Below are positions 573 to 49,111 of a stretch of 64,000 nt of DNA, piece by piece (the stretch's first letter is position 1; each line of letters opens with the position of its first letter). The translations under genes and the position numbers were made by a program. The notes under the pieces are model-generated. The model searched no databases and was not told the origin of the DNA. It saw only the letters and a program-made list of their open reading frames with translations. Source of the DNA: Anoxybacteroides voinovskiense (GTDB lineage: Bacteria > Bacillota > Bacilli > Bacillales > Anoxybacillaceae); the NCBI RefSeq assembly GCF_014196205.1, contig NZ_JACIDE010000003.1, positions 1 to 64,000 on the forward strand. The letters are read 5' to 3'.

Positions 573-1656
573 ATGAGTCATGTAAAATCTCTTCAATGTA
601 AATGTCACGTTGTTCGCTCAATGAAATAAACGTTTCGTTAGTCGTTTTTATAATCGGCCGCGTCGGTTCTTTGCGATGGATAAAGACGATTTCTCCTGTT
701 TCTCCATTCGATAGCTTCACTTTCGTTCCGACGTTAAACGATGTTAAACTATCTAATAAAATTTGTATGACCTCGACACTAAGTTTTCCAAAACTTTCTT
801 TCTGAATTTGTTCCAACGCTTTAAACGGAGACTCTTTTTTTCGATAAAGGCGCTCCGATACCATCGCGTGATATACGTCAGCGACCGCAACGATTTTGCT
901 ATATGGATGAATTTGTTTATCAGTAATCCCGAACGGATAGCCGCTTCCGTCATTTCGTTCGTGATGCTGCAATACTGCTAATTTTACTCCTTCTTGTATA
1001 AAAGAGATTTTTTGCACCATTTTATATCCGAAAACAGAATGTTGCTTTACTTCTTTATACTCTTCTGATGTCAAGGCAGATTTTTTCATTAAAATTTTTT
1101 CATCAATTTTCGCCATCCCACAATTGCTCAAAAAACCAGCTAGCGCAATTTGACAATAGTCACCTTTACTATAATTCAAACATTTCGCTAAAAATCCGGA
1201 TAATAGCCCGACACTTACCGCATGATGACATAAATAATCTTCTTTGGTTGTGTAACGATATAGCGTAAGCAACTCGCTCCGGTTATCAACTAAACGGTCT
1301 AGCAACGGTAAGAGGATTGCACGCACCTCGTTAATATCAATTGCCAGCCCAGATTGCCATGATTGAAATACTTTTTTATACCGCTGCACTGCTTTTAAAT
1401 AAAGGGTGATTAACTCTTCTTCTTGAACGGTTCCGCTAGGCGAATTTTGTGGAATCACTTCTGCTGGTTTAAACGGCTGGCCATTCGCTAAAACAGATTC
1501 GACGTAAACATCTTCTATCAAAAATTTTTCCAACACATGAAGCAGCGTCGGTGTTAATACGGTATTTTTAGGAATAATTGGTTTTTGTGTTTTACCGATA
1601 ACATCTTCTGCTAAAATACATCCTTCTTGCAGTTGCTGGATTTTTACTCGAAACAT
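571..1656 (-). CDS. HD-GYP-like domain protein with degraded HD motif
   Basis: 361 residues. The second half resembles HD-GYP domains, which hydrolyse cyclic-di-GMP. The GYP part is intact (HHERNDGSGYPFG, then VADVYHAM). Where active enzymes have HDIGK after a hydrophobic helix, this protein reads FLSNCGMAKI, so the metal-binding His-Asp pair is replaced by Ser-Asn. A catalytically dead or binding-only role is inferred. The N-terminal third has no domain I recognise. The ATG at 1656 is preceded by GGGGGAGG; an upstream in-frame start at 1749 lacks a good ribosome site. It follows gyrA with no visible terminator between them, so readthrough is likely. From memory, related thermophiles have a gene like this in the same place. 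Confidence 0.85.
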   Translation of the reverse strand: MFRVKIQQLQEGCILAEDVIGKTQKPIIPKNTVLTPTLLHVLEKFLIEDVYVESVLANGQPFKPAEVIPQNSPSGTVQEEELITLYLKAVQRYKKVFQSWQSGLAIDINEVRAILLPLLDRLVDNRSELLTLYRYTTKEDYLCHHAVSVGLLSGFLAKCLNYSKGDYCQIALAGFLSNCGMAKIDEKILMKKSALTSEEYKEVKQHSVFGYKMVQKISFIQEGVKLAVLQHHERNDGSGYPFGITDKQIHPYSKIVAVADVYHAMVSERLYRKKESPFKALEQIQKESFGKLSVEVIQILLDSLTSFNVGTKVKLSNGETGEIVFIHRKEPTRPIIKTTNETFISLSEQRDIYIEEILHDS

Positions 1657-1795
1657 ATTCCTCCCCCAGTTTCCCCCACTTTTTCTCACTTCGCCCTCGA
1701 TGGAAGCGAGCTTTTTAGAATGATAAACTGACGAAGGAAAGCCTAACACTTTCCTCCGTCAGCTGAAGGCGTAGATTTTTGTCAGTCAAATCGGA

Positions 1796-4261
1796 TTATG
1801 CTTCCTCTCCGCTTTCTAATTCTTTTTCTTCGTCGCGTGAAACTTTCGCAACCGTTGCAACGTATTCATGGTCGCCAGATAAACGAATAAGTTTGACGCC
1901 CTTTGTATTTCTTCCCATTCGGGAAATATCGCTTACGGCGATTCGAATTAAAATCCCGTTCGTTGTCATTAACATTAAATCTTCTTCATCTGTCACTGTT
2001 TTCACTGCAACAACTGTCCCGTTTTTCTCGGTAATGTTGCACGTCTTTAATCCTTTTCCCCCACGCGTCTGAATGCGATATTCTGAGGCTTTTGTCCGTT
2101 TTCCGTATCCATTTTTCGTGACAACAAGCACATCGTCAGCGTCTTCTAAAATTTCCATTCCGACGACTTCATCATCGCCTTCTAACGTAATTGCTTTTAC
2201 CCCTGTCGCACTTCTTCCCATCGTTCGCACATCCGTTTCTGGGAAACGAATGAGCATGCCGTGTTTCGTTCCAACAATAATATGTTTGGAACCATCGGTC
2301 AACTTCACAGAAATTAATTCGTCGCCTTCGCGAAGACAAATAGCAATTAGCCCGTTGTTGCGAATGTTAGCAAACGAAGAGAGCGGAGAGCGTTTGGCAA
2401 TCCCTTGTTTTGTTGTAAAGAACAAGAACGAATTATCATCAAACTCATCGATTGTAATAATCGTATTAATCCACTCTTCCTTATCGATTTCTAACAAATT
2501 AACAATAGGGAGTCCTTTTGCTGTTCGACCGAACTCTGGGATTTCATATCCTTTCGCTCGATATACCTTTCCTTTATTTGTAAAAAATAAAATAGTATGG
2601 TGTGTTGATGTAATGAGGAGATGTTCAACAAAATCATCCTCGCTCGTATTCATTCCTTGAACTCCTCTTCCGCCACGCTTTTGACTCCGATACGTAGAAA
2701 GCGGAATCCGCTTAATGTAACCTTTATGTGTCAACGTCACGACGATTTGTTCGCAAGGGATTAAATCTTCATCCGCAAACTCTTCCACACCACCACTTAT
2801 AATTTCGGTTCTTCGTTCATCGTTAAATCGTTCTTTTATTTCTGTTAGCTCGGTTCGAATAATTTGCAATACTTTTTCTTCGTCTGCTAAAATCGAACGC
2901 AATTCCGCGATAAGTCGAACAAGCTCTTGGTATTCTTGTTCGATTTTTTCCCGTTCTAAGCCAGTCAATCTTTGCAAGCGCATATCTAAAATCGCTTGCG
3001 CCTGTCTTTCCGTTAACGAAAATTTTTGCATTAACCCTTCTTTCGCCATTTCTGTTGTTTGTGAGTGACGAATTAAGTGGATGACTTCGTCTAAATGGTC
3101 AAGCGCAATGCGTAGCCCTTCTAAAATATGCGCTCGTGCTTCTGCTTTTTTCAGTTCATACGCTGTACGACGGCGAATAACGATTTTTTGATGATCTAAA
3201 TAGTGAATTAAACATTCTTTTAAATTTAGTACTTTCGGTTGTCCGTCCACAAGCGCCAACATATTAATGCCAAAACTCGTTTGTAACGCTGTTTGTTTAT
3301 ATAAATTGTTTAAAATCACTTTCGCATTGGCATCTCTACGAATTTCCATGACAACTCGCATGCCGTTTCGGTCTGATTCATCCCGCAAATCAGTAATGCC
3401 ATCAATTTTTTTCTCACGGACAAGTTCTGCAATTCGTTCAATCAATTTCGCCTTGTTCACTTGATAAGGAAGTTCGTAAACGATAATGCTTTCCTTGCCG
3501 TTTTCTTTTTGTTCAATTTCCACTTTTGCTCGCAATGTAATCGAGCCACGACCTGTTTCATATGCTTTCCGAATGCCGCTACGACCAATGATTTGCCCAC
3601 CGGTTGGAAAATCTGGTCCAGGGATAAATTCCATCAATTCAGCAACCGTCATTTCTGGATCTTGACTTAATGCTAAAAGTGCATCTACTACCTCACCGAG
3701 CTGATGTGGGGGGATATTTGTTGCCATCCCCACCGCAATCCCTGAGGAGCCGTTGACAAGTAAATTTGGAAAGCGTGAGGGCAAAACAATCGGCTCTTTT
3801 TCCGAACCATCGTAGTTGTCTTGATAATCAATCGTATCTTTCGTAATATCACGCAATAGTTCCATCGAGATTTTCGACATGCGCGCTTCCGTATAACGCA
3901 TAGCTGCCGCTGCATCGCCATCAATCGATCCGAAGTTCCCATGCCCGTCCACTAACATATAACGATAGTTGAAATCTTGCGCCATCCGCACCATCGTGTC
4001 ATAAACAGCCGCATCCCCATGTGGATGGTACTTACCGATAACTTCTCCAACGATGCGTGCGGATTTTTTATAAGGCTTGTCCGCAGTCATTCCTAAATCG
4101 TGCATCGCGTATAAAATTCGGCGATGAACCGGCTTCAACCCGTCTCGAACATCAGGCAAAGCACGTGACACAATAACACTCATTGCATAATCAAGAAAAG
4201 ACGAGCGCATTTCTTGGCTAATATTCACTTCGCGAATTCGTGAATTTTGGTTTTCTGACAT
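1796..4261 (-). CDS. gyrA: DNA gyrase subunit A
   Basis: 821 residues, the normal length. GyrA carries the breakage-reunion activity of the A2B2 gyrase that adds negative supercoils. The catalytic tyrosine is Tyr123 in AMRYTEAR. The GyrA box QKRGGRG that marks a true gyrase rather than topoisomerase IV is at residues 527-533, ahead of the C-terminal beta-pinwheel repeats and an acidic tail. Residue 84, the main quinolone-resistance position (Ser in B. subtilis), is Ala here, codon GCG at 4010-4012. The start has GGGAGG nine bases upstream. It lies 71 bases after gyrB and probably shares its transcript. Confidence 0.98.
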
Positions 4262-4332
4262 TTTGCCAAAACCTCCCTTGTAAACTCATTTTTATCCGGG
4301 GGAGGGTGATAAGCGACACTCTCCGTACAACT

Positions 4333-6264
<1,932 letters not shown>

Positions 6265-6290
6265 CTACGCTTTCCTTTGACAGTCAAAAC

Positions 6291-7403
6291 TCATTGGGTT
6301 ATTTGGCCAGAACGCACGCGGTAAACAGCTGCTTCTTTTATGACGTCATGCTCAATTCCATCAATGCTTGTCGTCGTAACGAACGTTTGGACTTTTTGGC
6401 GAATCGCATTCAACAAATGCGTTTGCCGAAAATCATCAAGTTCTGAAAGAACGTCGTCTAATAAAAGAATCGGATAATCACCCGTTTCTGTGAAAATCAA
6501 TTCAATTTCCGCTAATTTAACAGATAAAGCGGTGGTCCTTTGCTGACCTTGTGAGCCGAACGTTTGGACATCTTTTCCGTTTACGTCGAACGATAAATCA
6601 TCACGGTGTGGACCAGCAAGCGTCAACCCCCGTTCAATTTCCTTCTCCTTTATTTTAACAAATTTTTCACTATACGCTTCTACTATTCTCGACAATTCTA
6701 TCTTTTCTGATACGTCAACCGACGGATGGTAACGAATAGAGAGGTTTTCTACCCCTCGGCTAATTTCGTGATGAATAGGCTCTGCCCACTTTTGCAACAG
6801 CTGCAAAAACTCATACCGTTTTAACGTAATTTTCGCAGCCAATTCCACCAACTGTTCCGTTAATACAGAAAGCATCGTTTCATCGCGCTGTTGCCTTGTT
6901 TGTAACGCTTTTAAATAGTGGTTTCGCTGCTGTAATATTTTTTGGTACAGGCTTAAATCGTGCATGTAGACAGGGGAAATTTGTCCGATTTCCATGTCGA
7001 TAAAACGTCGCCTTACTTGAGGTCCCCCTTTGACGAGATATAAGTCTTCTGGGGCAAACAAAACAACGGGAAGATGACCAATGTATTGACTTAATTTTCG
7101 TTGTTCTATATGGTTTATTTTTGCTTTTTTCCCTTTTTTTGATACAACAAGCTGTAAAGAGAGCGGACCATTTCGTTTCATCGCTCTCCCTTCTATTTTA
7201 GCATATTCCTCCTCCCAACGAATCAATTCTTTATCATTTGCCGTTCGATGGGATTTGGCCATCGCTAACACGTAAATCGCTTCCATCAAATTAGTCTTTC
7301 CTTGCGCATTTTCCCCTAAAATGATGTTGACATGATTAGCAAATGTCACTTCTTGGCTGCTGTAGTTCCGATAATTTTTTAGCGATAATTGTGTCAAGAG
7401 CAA
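6291..7403 (-). CDS. recF: DNA replication and repair protein RecF
   Basis: 370 residues. RecF is an SMC-like ATPase that, with RecO and RecR, loads RecA at single-strand gaps. Walker A is GENAQGKTN near residue 31, the ABC signature is in [12 protein letters not shown], and Walker B is [12 protein letters not shown]. The start is a TTG (7401-7403) with AGGTGA upstream; it puts the conserved YRNY at the same position as in B. subtilis RecF. It lies 11 bases after yaaA, so the two are co-transcribed. Confidence 0.97.
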
Positions 7404-40496: not shown

Positions 40497-40976
40497 GTGA
40501 ATATAACGGTTTTATCTGTTGGTAAGTTAAAAGAAAAATATTTGAAGCAAGGAATCGATGAATATGCGAAGCGGTTATCGACGTATGCGAAGATAGAGAT
40601 CATTGAGGTGGCGGATGAAAAAGCGCCAGAACATTTAAGCCAGCAAGAGATGGAGCAAATAAAAGCGAAAGAAGGCGAGCGCCTTTTAGCGAAAATCCCG
40701 CATGATGCGTATACTATCGCCTTAGCCATTGAGGGAACGATGAAATCCTCGGAGCAATTTGCTGAAAGTTTAGATAAGCTTGCGACTTACGGCAAAAGTA
40801 AAGTCGTCTTTATCATCGGCGGCTCGCTCGGTCTAAGCCGCCAAGTGATCGAGCGTGCTGACGAACTGCTCTCTTTTTCTAAAATGACGTTCCCGCACCA
40901 GCTGATGCGCTTAATCCTTCTAGAACAAATTTACCGCGCATTTCGGATTAATCGGGGGGAACCATACCACAAATAG
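40497..40976 (+). CDS. rlmH: 23S rRNA pseudouridine-1915 N3-methyltransferase RlmH
   Basis: 159 residues, the exact B. subtilis length. A SPOUT methyltransferase acting on assembled 70S ribosomes. It has the knotted SAM site IGGSLGLS and the end [26 protein letters not shown]. The GTG at 40497 follows GGGG and matches the family start; upstream in-frame codons run through DnaA boxes. Confidence 0.97.
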
Positions 40977-41013: not shown

Positions 41014-41042
41014 TTTACATTTTTCACTAAATTTTTTATAAT
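41014..41042 (+). promoter_or_regulatory. promoter of the dgcN-like operon
   Basis: TTTACA, 17-base spacer, perfect TATAAT. The start of transcription is expected near 41049, about 100 bases before the first codon. Confidence 0.7.
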
Positions 41043-41070
41043 TATTGATAGAATGACTATTTTTATGAAG

Positions 41071-41108
41071 GAACATCTTTCCGAAACAAGGGTTAAGGTG
41101 TTCTTTTT
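41071..41108 (+). terminator. leader terminator (possible attenuator)
   Basis: GAACATCTT (41071-41079) pairs with AAGGTGTTC (41095-41103, one G-T pair), then five T. It lies between the promoter and the first gene, so it may gate entry into the operon. A competing short pairing GGAA/TTCC overlaps the left arm. Confidence 0.6.
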
Positions 41109-41149
41109 CGTGGAAAAAATTGATTTCACATGAAATGGAGGGGTTTCTC

Positions 41150-42238
41150 GTGAAGAAGTATGCCATTGTTTATTGTGAAAATCAATTTGGTTCCATGGAT
41201 GGAAAAACGGCAAACGGATTAGTCCGCAATTCTGGACTGTATGAAATTGCGGCGGTTATTGACAGTACGAAAGCTGGACAAGATGCAGGTGAAGTATTAG
41301 ACAAAAAACGAAACGGTATTCCGATTTACAAAGACCTTCAAGAAGCGATTACCTCTGTGAAAGAAAAACCGAACTACTTTATCCTTGGAATTGCTCCTGC
41401 AAATGCTTTTCTCAAACAAGAAGAACGGCAAGTAGTAATCGATGCAATGGAAGCAGGAATGCATATTATTAATCCCCTACAAGAATTTTTGACAGAAGAT
41501 GAAGAAATGATGGCAATTGCCAAACGTTGCGGCGTAGAAATTCGCGATATTCGCAAACCGCGGCCGAAAAAAGAATGGACGCTATTTACCGGACGCATTT
41601 TGCAAGTAAAGGCACCAGTCGTTGCTGTGCTTGGCACCGATGGGGCGTGTGGCAAACGGACGACGGCAATGATTGTGGACAAAGGACTACAAGCGCGCGG
41701 CTATCGCACTGCGTTTATTGCTACTGGGCAGACAGGACTCATTCAAGGCGCTTCTTACGGTTTCGCCATGGACGCGTTTCCGCTCCAATATATGATTGGA
41801 GAATTGGAACGAGAAATCGTCCGAGCGTACGAAACGGAGCAGCCGGACATTATTATCGTCGAAGGACAAGGAGCATTAAGCCATCCTGCGTACGTCAGTT
41901 CATGCGGCATTTTAAAAGGAGCAAGGCCGCAAGCAGTAATTTTGCAACATCCGCCAAAACGAAAAGTTCTCGGCGATTTCCCGTTCATGAAAATGCCGTC
42001 TGTTCAAAGCGAAATCGAGTTAATTGAACATTTCGGCCAAACAAAAGTCGTCGCGATTACGTTAAACCACGAAGGAATGACGGATGATGAACTACAAAAA
42101 ACGATTATAGAATATGAACAAACGTTCCGCATGCCAGTAACAGACGTCTTAAAAATGGGACCAGATAAAGTAATTGACCGTCTTATCGACTACTTCCCGT
42201 CATTGAAAAAGAAACGTCCGTCAGGGGTGGCCGTATGA
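41150..42238 (+). CDS. DUF1611 / DgcN-like P-loop protein
   Basis: 362 residues. The N-terminal Rossmann-like part (about 1-130) precedes a P-loop domain with GTDGACGKRTTA at residues 162-173 and IIVEGQGALSHPAY. This is the DUF1611 family, whose characterised member DgcN N-acetylates D-glutamate in a marine D-Glu pathway; substrate here is not known. The GTG at 41150 lies six bases after GGAGGGG. It overlaps the downstream racemase-like gene by four bases (ATGA), which ties it to D-amino-acid chemistry. Confidence 0.85.
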   Translation: MKKYAIVYCENQFGSMDGKTANGLVRNSGLYEIAAVIDSTKAGQDAGEVLDKKRNGIPIYKDLQEAITSVKEKPNYFILGIAPANAFLKQEERQVVIDAMEAGMHIINPLQEFLTEDEEMMAIAKRCGVEIRDIRKPRPKKEWTLFTGRILQVKAPVVAVLGTDGACGKRTTAMIVDKGLQARGYRTAFIATGQTGLIQGASYGFAMDAFPLQYMIGELEREIVRAYETEQPDIIIVEGQGALSHPAYVSSCGILKGARPQAVILQHPPKRKVLGDFPFMKMPSVQSEIELIEHFGQTKVVAITLNHEGMTDDELQKTIIEYEQTFRMPVTDVLKMGPDKVIDRLIDYFPSLKKKRPSGVAV

Positions 42239-43341
42239 GAACAGCGCTCACCCCGAGGGTGGAAATTGATTTGCACAAAATTCGCCATAATGCTAGCGTG
42301 CTAAAAAAATTATATGAGAAAAAAGGTGTTCAAGTGACAGCGGTCGTCAAAGGAGTAGACGCTAGTATCGAGATTGCGAAAACGCTCGTGGAAAGCGGGA
42401 TTACAAGTTTAGCCGATACGAAAATTTCCCGCCTCCGACGATTAAAAGCAACGCGTTTGAATGCGACGCTCATGTTGTTAAGGACGCCAGCATTAAGCGA
42501 AGTGGCGTCCGTCGTTCAAGTTGCTGACATTAGCATGAACACAGAACTAGATGTGATTCGTGCATTGGCAAACGAAGCAGCAAAGCAACAGAAGAAACAT
42601 TCGATTATTTTAATGGTCGAAATGGGCGACTTGCGCGAAGGGGTTATGCCCGAAGATTTGCCTGCGATGATCGAAGAAGTGTTAAAGTTGCCAAACATTC
42701 AGCTTGTCGGTCTTGGCACGAATTTCGCTTGCTTTGGCGGCGTGATTCCGACTGAGCAAAAAATGTGTGAATTTTCCTCTATCGTAAAACAAATCCAAAA
42801 GCGGTTTTCGTTATTTCTCCCATATGTTTCGGGCGGCAACTCTGCTAATTACCATTGGGTGAAACAAACAAAAGATGTCGGAACGGTAAACCATATTCGC
42901 CTCGGGGAATCGATTTTTTTAGGAAGGGAAACAGTGAACGGAACTCCGATTCCTGGGCTGTACCAAGATGCGTTTTGCTTAGTAGCGGAAGTGATTGAAG
43001 CAAAAACGAAGCCGTCGGTGCCATTTGGAGAGCGAGGGCGAAACGCATTTGGCGAAACGATTACGTTTGGCGATCGCGGGCTCATCCGGCGTGCCATCGT
43101 TGGCATCGGTCGGCAAGATGTCTTCGTGCCAGGGTTAACACCGCTATTGCCGATAGACATTCTTGGGGCAAGCAGCGACCATATTATTCTTGATACGAAA
43201 AATATCGAGTTAAAGGTTGGGGATGAAGTAAAATTCAACGTTGATTACGGTGCACTTATTTCACTTATGACGTCTCCTTACGTTTATAAAAAATATTTGC
43301 CTGAACGAAGCCACTATTCCAAAAGTCGAACGTCCGCATAA
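42235..43341 (+). CDS. PLP-dependent alanine/ornithine racemase family protein
   Basis: 368 residues. Alanine-racemase-type N-terminal barrel with the PLP lysine in TAVVKGVDA, followed by SGGNSANYHW and NHIRLGESIFLG, which match ornithine-racemase-like (Orr) proteins more than the true Alr. It likely interconverts L- and D-forms of a basic or acidic amino acid; the substrate cannot be told from sequence. It is translationally coupled to the DUF1611 gene and ends at a strong terminator. Confidence 0.85.
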   Translation: MRTALTPRVEIDLHKIRHNASVLKKLYEKKGVQVTAVVKGVDASIEIAKTLVESGITSLADTKISRLRRLKATRLNATLMLLRTPALSEVASVVQVADISMNTELDVIRALANEAAKQQKKHSIILMVEMGDLREGVMPEDLPAMIEEVLKLPNIQLVGLGTNFACFGGVIPTEQKMCEFSSIVKQIQKRFSLFLPYVSGGNSANYHWVKQTKDVGTVNHIRLGESIFLGRETVNGTPIPGLYQDAFCLVAEVIEAKTKPSVPFGERGRNAFGETITFGDRGLIRRAIVGIGRQDVFVPGLTPLLPIDILGASSDHIILDTKNIELKVGDEVKFNVDYGALISLMTSPYVYKKYLPERSHYSKSRTSA

Positions 43342-43348
43342 GATAAGT

Positions 43349-43395
43349 ATCGCTTTTCTGCTTTAGGTGAGTCGGAGGCAGAAAAGCGATTTTTT
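43349..43395 (+). terminator. intrinsic terminator after racemase gene
   Basis: ATCGCTTTTCTGC and GCAGAAAAGCGAT form a perfect 13-base stem, followed by T. Confidence 0.95.
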
Positions 43396-46052: not shown

Positions 46053-47564
46053 TCATTCGATTTTTTGTAACGGTTGCTGTGCTGGACCTTCGATGACGTC
46101 ACCGTGGACAGAGAAACGAGAGCCATGGCATGGACAGTCCCATGTGCGGTCGCCGCTATTCCATTCGACTTCACATCCTAAATGGGTGCATGTCGTATCG
46201 ACGATCGACAACATTCCGTTTTCATCTTTATAGGCACCTGCTCGTTTGCCGTTAACAAGGACAACCGCGCCCTCCCCATTCGCTAAATCGTCTGGCGTCC
46301 GTACGACGACCTCGATTTTTCCTTCTACAAGGTGCTTGGCGACATCTGCATTTTGCACGACGAAATGTTTGACGCTCGGGTCGGCATAAAAGCGCGACGG
46401 CGTATAAAGCTCGCTGTAACGATTGTCCCGCCCTAAAATTAAATCGCTTAACAACAAGCCTGCCACTGTCCCGTTTGTCATCCCCCATTTTCGGTAGCCT
46501 GTCGCGACATAGACGTTTTTTGTGTTGGCTGTCATATGGCCGATGTACGGCACTTTATCAAGCGTTATTAAGTCTTGGGCGGACCAGCGATAAGGAATGG
46601 CAGTGACTGGAAATAACTCGGACGCAAACGACCGCAATGCCCCGTAATGTTCGATTGTCGGTATTCCTTGCCCGGTTTTATGGCTTTCTCCGCCGATAAG
46701 AAGCAGTTCCCCATTAGGCGTGTCCACTGAGCGAATGGATCGTTTCGGCTCATCGGCGCTTAAATACATGCCGCCGGGATATTTTTTATCACTTTGAACG
46801 GCAAGCACATACGAGCGTTCCGCATACATGCGCGAAAAATAAAACCCACCGTCATAAAACGGAAAATGGGAACAGACGACAAGATGGCGACATGTGAGCC
46901 GTTTATGCTGCCTTGTAATGACGGTTAACGTTTCCCCTTGCTCTACATCAGCCGCGGGCGTTTGCTCATATATTTTTCCACCTTTTTGTTGAATGGCTTC
47001 GACAAGCTTTTGTAAATATTTCAATGGATGAAATTGGGCTTGGTGTTTCATGACGAGCGCTGCACGAATAGGTAGCGATAGCGGCATCGTTTCTTGAACT
47101 GCACCAGAAATACCTAGTTTTTCATACGCTTTCCATTCGTTAATTAGGTTATGGAGTGAAGCGTCTGTTGTTGAATAAATGTACGCCTCTTCCTCTTTCC
47201 AATCGCAGTCGATACGTTGTGCCTCAATCGTTGTTTTTATCCATTGCATCGCCTCTGTGCAGGCATCGTAATACATCCTCGCTTTTTCGACGCCAAGATG
47301 ATGAAGCAATTCATCGTAAATCAGATCGTGCTGCGCTGTCACTTTTGCGGTAGTGTGCCCCGTTGTTCCGTTTAATAGACGGTCGGCTTCAATAAGCGCA
47401 ACATCTACCCCAGCATTCGCTAATAAATAGGCGGTTGTAATACCGGAAATACCGCCACCAACGATGACTGTATCGACATGAATATTTTCTGTTAACGGCG
47501 AAAAAGACGGGAGCACAGTGGACGTTCGCCAATACGGTTCGACAAGTTGCGGAAGTGAGTGCAT
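46053..47564 (-). CDS. FAD-dependent oxidoreductase with Rieske domain (YhfW-like)
   Basis: 503 residues. N-terminal DAO-type FAD domain (VIVGGGISGITTAYLLANAG at about residue 33) and a C-terminal Rieske [2Fe-2S] domain with CTHLGC (Cys459, His461) and CPCHGS (Cys477, His480). B. subtilis YhfW has the same architecture; its substrate is unknown. The start has AAGGAGG upstream. No ferredoxin or substrate genes are adjacent. Transcribed alone on the minus strand. Confidence 0.93.
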   Translation of the reverse strand: MHSLPQLVEPYWRTSTVLPSFSPLTENIHVDTVIVGGGISGITTAYLLANAGVDVALIEADRLLNGTTGHTTAKVTAQHDLIYDELLHHLGVEKARMYYDACTEAMQWIKTTIEAQRIDCDWKEEEAYIYSTTDASLHNLINEWKAYEKLGISGAVQETMPLSLPIRAALVMKHQAQFHPLKYLQKLVEAIQQKGGKIYEQTPAADVEQGETLTVITRQHKRLTCRHLVVCSHFPFYDGGFYFSRMYAERSYVLAVQSDKKYPGGMYLSADEPKRSIRSVDTPNGELLLIGGESHKTGQGIPTIEHYGALRSFASELFPVTAIPYRWSAQDLITLDKVPYIGHMTANTKNVYVATGYRKWGMTNGTVAGLLLSDLILGRDNRYSELYTPSRFYADPSVKHFVVQNADVAKHLVEGKIEVVVRTPDDLANGEGAVVLVNGKRAGAYKDENGMLSIVDTTCTHLGCEVEWNSGDRTWDCPCHGSRFSVHGDVIEGPAQQPLQKIE

Positions 47565-47737
47565 TTGCTATTCCTCCTTCTGATTCTATCTACATACATA
47601 AATTTCCTTAAACTAAAAAAATTATCCGTGACTCGTTCATTTTCTTTTTTGCCTCTCGTTCCAAGAAAGGTGATAAAATAAGAAACAGAGAGAAAAGGGA
47701 TTTATTTTCATACTATAGCGTAAGAGGGAGATTGGAA

Positions 47738-49111
47738 GTGAATAATTATACAAATAACTTAGAGCATCATTCCTCTGGATGGAAAGATAACGTCATTTTA
47801 GAACATTACGGGTTGAACGAATTAAATTTTGAATCTGTCAAGCATTATCGGGAAAAATTTGCGGAGGCAAAACCGAATCACCCGTGGAATGGGCTAGAGA
47901 TGAAAGAATTTTTATACAAAATTGGTGCATGGGGGAAATTGAGAAACAGCAGTAAAGAAGGCATTACGATCGCAGGGCTTTTAATGTTCAGCGAAGAACG
48001 AATCATTACAGAGGTGCTGCCGCAATATTTTTTAGAGTATCGTGAAATACAAACAACTTATCAAGGTGGCTGGTCGAAGCGATTTACTTCTCAAGATGGA
48101 ACATGGTCAGGAAACGTATACGATTTTTATTTTAAAGTAATGGATACCATTTCCCCACATGAGCGCTCCATTGCACCAGCGTTGCATGAAGCGGTCATTA
48201 ACGCACTTGTTCATGCCGATTATTTCGGGGAAGGCGGGATTGTTATTGAGAAAGAACGTAACACCTATCGGCTTTCTAATCCGGGATTGCTTCGCATTCC
48301 GGTAGAATCTGCTTGGACAAGTGGAATGAGCCATTTACGCAATCCGAATGTGTTTAAGATGTTTATTTTAATTGGGTTATGCAAAAGAGCGGGATTCGGA
48401 CTTCCATACCTTTCGTCCGTATGGGAAGGACAACGTTGGAAACAGCCGGAGGTCATTCAACAAGCGGATCCAGCACGTACGATATTTGTATTACCGACAG
48501 AACCGAGCGCTGTCATGTTTCCAGAAGAAACGGCAGTGGCATCTGAAACAGAAGAACAACCATTAGTAATACAGCATGGAGAGGTAGAGTTTGTTGACTG
48601 GGGAGAGGATCTAACTGCCGACTTCATAAATAACGCGCCGAACTCCATAAATAAAAATTCAAACTCTTTAAATAACGGGGACTACTCCGTAAATAACTCC
48701 CTTAACTCCGTGGATAACGAGATTTACTCCGTAAATAATAATATCAACTCCGTGAATAACCGCGAAAACTCCGTGAATAACAAACCGGACTACGTAAATA
48801 AGCATTCTAAGTCCGTAAATAATAAAAGCGGTGAGGAGCATATAGAGGTGGAGGATTCGTTATGGCAAATTGCTTCTTTAGCGCGGAAGAAAAGAAGGCT
48901 TTCTCCAGCGATGATGGAGCAAATTATTTTACAGCTTTGTGCGAAACGCCCGCTCATGCTAAAAGAATTGTCCTATTTATTGGATCGGACGGCAGACGGA
49001 TTGCGCAATAACTACTTGTCTAAATTATTAGAGGAAGGAAAAATACGGTTGAAATATCCCGAGCAGCCAAACCACCCACGTCAAGCATATGTGACAATAC
49101 AAGATTCATAA
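47738..49111 (+). CDS. AAA_4/RecG-C-like ATP-binding protein, N-terminally short, with heptad repeats
   Basis: 457 residues. Residues about 140-230 resemble the HATPase_c_4 domain of Schlafen-AlbA_2-type regulators (HEAVINALVHADYFG, then KRAGFGLPYL). The AlbA_2 domain that normally precedes it is missing; only its trailing segment seems present (GITIAGLLMFSEE). Residues 295-364 are ten 7-residue repeats of the form [N/Y]-S-[V/I/L]-N-N-x-x. The last 85 residues form a winged-helix-like region (LMLKELSYLLDRTADGLRNNYL, too long to be chance). GTG start with GAGGGAG seven bases upstream; TTG at 47732 is an alternative. Confidence 0.8.
   Translation: MNNYTNNLEHHSSGWKDNVILEHYGLNELNFESVKHYREKFAEAKPNHPWNGLEMKEFLYKIGAWGKLRNSSKEGITIAGLLMFSEERIITEVLPQYFLEYREIQTTYQGGWSKRFTSQDGTWSGNVYDFYFKVMDTISPHERSIAPALHEAVINALVHADYFGEGGIVIEKERNTYRLSNPGLLRIPVESAWTSGMSHLRNPNVFKMFILIGLCKRAGFGLPYLSSVWEGQRWKQPEVIQQADPARTIFVLPTEPSAVMFPEETAVASETEEQPLVIQHGEVEFVDWGEDLTADFINNAPNSINKNSNSLNNGDYSVNNSLNSVDNEIYSVNNNINSVNNRENSVNNKPDYVNKHSKSVNNKSGEEHIEVEDSLWQIASLARKKRRLSPAMMEQIILQLCAKRPLMLKELSYLLDRTADGLRNNYLSKLLEEGKIRLKYPEQPNHPRQAYVTIQDS
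48620..48829 (+). repeat. ten 21-base in-frame repeats
   Basis: Exactly ten consecutive 21-base units encode DFINNAP, NSINKNS, NSLNNGD, YSVNNSL, NSVDNEI, YSVNNNI, NSVNNRE, NSVNNKP, DYVNKHS and KSVNNKS. The core ACTCCGTAAATAA is the best conserved DNA part, and the last two positions of each unit vary most. The encoded stretch is polar and very rich in Asn. Confidence 0.95.

Follow-up and report, generated by a model that had tools for sequence, protein, structure and literature searches.

The locus lies in a window of 64,000 nucleotides, the whole stretch of DNA analysed, from a host genome of 3.2 Mb. It consists of two genes on the + strand, one for a DUF1611 protein (41150–42238) and one for an Orr-type PLP racemase of the alanine-racemase fold (42235–43341), which share a stop/start overlap, ATGA, at 42235–42238, with putative translational coupling. 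The pair is flanked by an rlmH-type gene (SPOUT methyltransferase family, ending at 40976) and a desB-type desaturase gene (43598). A promoter-like site, TTTACA-N17-TATAAT, which matches the consensus at 11 of 12 positions, is located at 41014–41042 (+) ahead of both genes, and the same kind of site was readable at the matching place in two further loci (L054 and L055). It is followed by a terminator or attenuator hairpin at 41068–41108 (+), with the arms AAGGAACATCTT/AAGGTGTTCTTT, the core GAACATCTT/AAGGTGTTC and then TTTTT, and by a Shine-Dalgarno sequence, GGAGGGG, at 41137–41143 (+), read directly ahead of the GTG start at 41150; the start region of the DUF1611 gene is conserved in relatives. 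An intrinsic terminator 3′ of the racemase gene (43349–43395, +; 13-bp hairpin ATCGCTTTTCTGC/GCAGAAAAGCGAT followed by T6) closes the unit. The earlier note had described a four-base overlap, a shared promoter and a leader terminator, and the gene pair with its overlap, promoter and leader terminator was confirmed as described. Most relatives of the pair have a −4 or −1 overlap, and for both proteins the nearest relatives came from Anoxybacillus. Elsewhere in the window we observed a 16S rRNA gene truncated by the window edge to its 5′ part (1–328, − strand), a FAD-dependent oxidoreductase fused to a Rieske domain (46053–47564, − strand) and an open reading frame (47732–49111) that contains a tract of SVNN/SLNN-type repeats and gave a weak, RecG-C-terminal-like match.

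The window leader folded at z = −2.97. Leader terminators, consisting of a stem and a T-run 5′ of the start, were detected in 17 of the 29 Bacillales leaders of the pair, where dinucleotide shuffles gave a mean of 3.8 and a maximum of 8 in 100 trials; among the other genes in these loci, 16 of 118 had one. The stem arms covaried between lineages (GAACATCTT/AAGGTGTTC, AACACCTTA/TAAGGTGTT and CCCGCAG/CTGCGGG), and in the Bacillales leaders the stem was conserved and the inner loop variable. Since a varying loop, co-varying arms and recurrence form the pattern expected of attenuation, we infer that the leader terminator would act as an attenuation switch for transcription of the pair. A conserved aptamer was disfavoured, because the stem is kept but the inner loop varies. 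An Rfam scan of the window leader detected no T-box or known riboswitch at gathering, and returned two chance-level microRNA matches (E up to 1).

The racemase matched PF01168 (E 1.6e-29), and the membership analysis placed it in the PLP type III alanine-racemase fold, with a PLP lysine, an arginine at the pyridine nitrogen and two domains. Its partner role had been ascribed before to an Orr-type PLP racemase and not to the enolase-fold DgcA, and both parts of that assignment held: the match to the Orr model NF040742 was full-length, at 401.4 bits against a cut-off of 480. With the alanine racemase model TIGR00492 the protein scored 61.3 bits against a cut-off of 168. Since the same genome encodes a separate true Alr (421 bits), the racemase of the pair is not the housekeeping alanine racemase. 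The predicted model (pLDDT 92) showed the whole Alr fold, C-terminal domain included, with Z 30 over 331 residues. In hhalign alignments K39 aligned with the PLP lysine of Alr, R222 with R219 and R134 with the R136 region, and these three residues were kept in 68–69 of 69 pair-type proteins; the protein also has the motif SGGNS (199–203). Judged by eye, the equivalent of Alr Tyr265 may be the variable residue 293 of the pair-type family; the hhalign alignment stops before the C-terminal domain. The Alr numbering and the roles of its residues are general background. The only strong match to an enolase-superfamily C-terminal domain in the genome was a menC-type protein encoded elsewhere.

The DUF1611 protein was above gathering with both PF17396 (84.6 against 22.6 bits, E 6e-24) and PF07755 (218.8 against 25 bits, E 6e-65), and its N-terminal Rossmann-like and C-terminal P-loop domains agree with the earlier placement in a DUF1611/DgcN-like P-loop family. 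With the DgcN equivalog NF041892 it scored 153.4 bits, where the cut-off is 480. The names DgcN and ornithine racemase, which the current annotation invites, thus found no support for either protein, and since both fall below the NCBI cut-offs and the DUF1611 lineages are separate (see below), neither name should be transferred.

The model of the DUF1611 protein (pLDDT 87) matched the DUF1611 structures 2obn, 2g0t and 7xrj with Z 38.5, 35.9 and 31.3, the last being deposited as the N-acetyltransferase DgcN. Beyond these structures the fold matches spanned only residues ~145–353 and were to nucleotide-binding proteins (Z 14–16), namely CbiA, MinD/Soj, HypB, BioD, CTP synthase and cyclic 2,3-diphosphoglycerate synthetase; the domain at about 150–353 therefore has a BioD/CbiA-like P-loop fold (Z 14–15). 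GNAT-fold entries were absent from the fold-match list, an absence that excludes nothing. In place of the canonical Walker A motif GxxxxGK[ST] the protein has GTDGACGKRTT (162–172), with R after GK in 71 of 71 pair-type proteins. Fixed in all 71 were D17, G18, K19, T163, D164, G168, K169, R170 and T171, and also TGQT 192–195, D208, EGQG 238–241 (within EGQGALSHP, 238–246), SHP 244–246, Q266, R271 and N306. These data bear on the possibility that the DUF1611 protein is a BioD/CbiA-type ATP-dependent ligase or kinase, which would activate a carboxylate and join the D-amino acid into a conjugate or dipeptide. Residues 145–353 fold like CbiA with bound ADP (Z 15) and like dethiobiotin synthetase, CTP synthase and cyclic 2,3-diphosphoglycerate synthetase (Z 14 each), and the TD...GK and EGQG signatures were kept throughout the pair-type proteins. 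However, a common fold shows no function, the Walker A motif is non-canonical, and 7xrj, annotated as an acetyltransferase, has GKMYT at the P-loop position where GKRTT stands here. We regard a ligase or kinase as somewhat unlikely, but as a serious rival to acylation. The proposal of the earlier note to assay the proteins with acetyl-CoA or ATP was apt, the nearest non-DUF1611 folds being ATP-dependent enzymes.

The linkage of the two genes was examined in a sample of 150 Bacillales genomes, 18 of which carried a full-length DUF1611, in 19 copies. The racemase lay directly downstream, as a strong match, in 17 of these 18. Two exceptions were noted: in G021 a racemase passing the Orr cut-off is located elsewhere in the genome, and G058 carries, besides its first copy, a divergent DUF1611 that belongs to another cluster. 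Lone strong racemase matches numbered five in this sample; in three Bacillales genomes (L050, L052 and L053) a lone Orr-type racemase was seen inside a conserved seven-gene context. A search with the pair-type DUF1611 alone retrieved at least 558 loci, of which the best 80 were examined and 79 were testable; the racemase adjoined DUF1611 in 65 of these 79 and was absent from the neighbourhood in 14. Among the matches listed, the hosts of paired loci belonged to at least 16 bacterial and archaeal phyla, including Bacillota, Bacteroidota, Verrucomicrobiota, Actinomycetota, Pseudomonadota, Spirochaetota, Myxococcota, Acidobacteriota and Gemmatimonadota, the archaeal and several other matches being MAG contigs that are possibly misbinned. 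Plasmids of Vibrio and Rhodobacterales carry the pair as well, and wherever the annotation includes both genes they overlap by the same 4 bases. Its distribution is patchy, since in a phylum-wide sample the pair-type profile detected 1 of 348 genomes, the window's own. The earlier note would have given up its reading had the pair been rare and unlinked elsewhere; it proved widespread and linked, and adjacency across Bacillales and the other phyla bears out the coupling of the genes. As the gene neighbours in Bacillales differ almost everywhere, the conserved linkage is not inherited synteny and the pair is free-standing; BCCT, ThiO-like oxidase, NspC and ProC-like neighbours, considered as clues to the substrate, were set aside as incidental. 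A pair so conserved and yet dispersed over phyla, chromosomal contexts and plasmids probably serves to make or handle a single, specific compound.

In phylogenetic trees the racemase-linked DUF1611s were split from all DgcA-linked ones by a branch with SH-aLRT 99, and the pair-type racemases from five lone Orr-type racemases by a 100% branch. Path lengths in the DUF1611 and racemase trees correlated at 0.92 over 69 pairs, to which shared host descent contributes. With midpoint rooting, the unpaired DUF1611s of Acetobacterium and Caldisericota branched off early within the racemase-linked side, although the trees were quick, with some long branches, and deep placements need care. The earlier suggestion of a distinct D-amino-acid pathway therefore stands as far as a lineage separate from DgcN-DgcA is concerned, and its pathway part is a reasonable guess. 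The split bears equally on a reading in which the DgcN-DgcA D-glutamate pathway operates with its racemase swapped, so that DUF1611 would acetylate D-Glu and the Orr-type enzyme would handle D-/L-Glu. The DUF1611 fold is the same, and the two-gene, near-overlapping layout is that of dgcN-dgcA. Yu et al. in 2023 reportedly described that DgcN acetylates first and DgcA then racemises. A PLP enzyme requires a free amine, so the racemase must act before any acylation, and the order of the DgcN-DgcA steps cannot apply here. In addition, all 71 Orr-linked proteins have Q at position 266, where all 7 DgcA-linked ones have C or A. We consider the swapped D-glutamate pathway very improbable.

Some operons contained additional genes. 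In a Myxococcota MAG (L127) a third gene of the D-aminoacylase family overlaps by 11 bases and matched solved D-aminoacylases and N-acyl-D-glutamate deacylase with E 1e-66 to 1e-72; in Natrinema a relative of it (35% identity), annotated as D-aminoacylase, precedes a DUF1611-dipeptide epimerase pair. Six operons from Bacteroidota, Ignavibacteriota and Chlorobiota add an M15 D,D-dipeptidase family gene with the motifs H..GGAVD and EYWHFD. These genes fit D-amino-acid chemistry but single out no substrate. The M15 genes also bear on the ligase, whose product the dipeptidase could cleave or recycle: their motifs keep the H..G..D and E.WH patterns, and the layout resembles the racemase, ligase and D,D-dipeptidase of van clusters, but the M15 gene is confined to a few phyla. 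Other DUF1611 lineages likewise adjoin racemases: in plasmid loci the neighbour is DgcA, and in L048 it belongs to the Asp/Glu racemase family. Since DUF1611s thus stand beside three unrelated racemase families (enolase-fold, PLP Alr-fold and Asp/Glu type), a common role of DUF1611 proteins in D-amino-acid chemistry is suggested. The L048 locus itself (contig 33 of G058, 794–6780) encodes FemAB-like, MFS and radical SAM proteins, the divergent DUF1611, a membrane-like protein and the Asp/Glu racemase family protein, and has the look of a small cluster for biosynthesis.

In Paenibacillus agricola (L078) we detected a c-di-AMP riboswitch (RF00379, 80.5 bits, 5682–5826) immediately 5′ of the two genes. 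It would suit the synthesis of an osmolyte, with racemase and N-acetyltransferase producing a compatible solute, an N-acetyl-D-amino acid, much as a mutase and an acetyltransferase do for N-epsilon-acetyl-beta-lysine; BCCT transporter genes downstream in two loci and the marine or salt-loving names of many hosts point the same way. Yet the riboswitch is a single case, the BCCT genes lie several hundred bases off or behind another gene, and the pair also occurs in thermophiles and non-halophiles, which makes an osmolyte role highly unlikely in our estimation.

The explanation that we tentatively prefer, at somewhat less than an even chance, is a two-enzyme D-amino-acid module, transcribed as a unit by itself, in which the racemase supplies a D-amino acid that the DUF1611 protein most likely N-acylates. 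A free amino acid would be converted between its L- and D-forms by the PLP racemase; the P-loop enzyme would use the D-isomer and most likely transfer an acyl group to its amine, like its distant relative DgcN. The product would be an N-acyl-D-amino acid, with acylation pulling the reaction towards D, and transcription of the module could be switched by attenuation at the leader terminator. The direction of the reaction, the acylation and the D-specificity are what we infer, and racemisation followed by trapping of the D-isomer is the economical reading. N-acylation as the trapping step is argued from DgcN, the one relative with a named function, and ATP-dependent ligation from the fold of the P-loop domain. 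Linkage over the phyla, correlated branch lengths, the Alr fold, the 7xrj-like fold and the D-aminoacylase and M15 neighbours support the module. Against acylation stand the low DgcN score at ~25% identity and the nucleotide-dependent nearest non-DUF1611 folds of the P-loop domain, unexpected for an acetyltransferase; against the module as a whole, the D-aminoacylase link comes from one MAG, and 14 of the 79 loci among the best 80 have no neighbouring racemase. A literature search on DUF1611 and racemase found no description of the role of the pair. A more far-reaching version, which we think distinctly unlikely, puts an ATP-dependent ligase in place of the acetyltransferase: the D-amino acid supplied by the racemase would be conjugated by DUF1611, in an undescribed and deeply conserved pathway that in Bacillales stands under the recurring attenuation leader; if true, it would lead to a new class of D-amino-acid metabolite.

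One of the closest known systems is the DgcN-DgcA D-glutamate pathway, mentioned in passages of PMC12363236 and PMC10845958. The pair resembles it in the order and near-overlap of the two genes, DUF1611 first and racemase second, and in the DUF1611 fold, and differs in that its racemase (PF01168) is of the PLP/Alr fold and not the enolase fold, that it has no DgcR-type neighbour and that its DUF1611 forms a separate clade. With Orr the racemase shares a full-length match and the motifs K39, GDLREG, SGGNS and RLGES, but it stays below the cut-off and pair-type racemases stand apart from the five lone Orr-type ones. The N-succinylamino-acid racemase pathway combines a GNAT protein with the enolase-fold NSAR, a layout also seen on contig 12 of the host's own genome (L154), where a menC-type enolase-fold gene lies beside a GNAT-like-looking gene. 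The pair would share with that pathway, in the proposed reading, the acylation and racemisation of D-amino acids, whereas both of its protein folds differ. The DUF1611 protein is like the BioD/CbiA ATP-dependent enzymes in its C-terminal domain fold, P-loop and EGxG motif, and unlike them in its GKRTT variant of Walker A and its extra N-terminal Rossmann-like domain.
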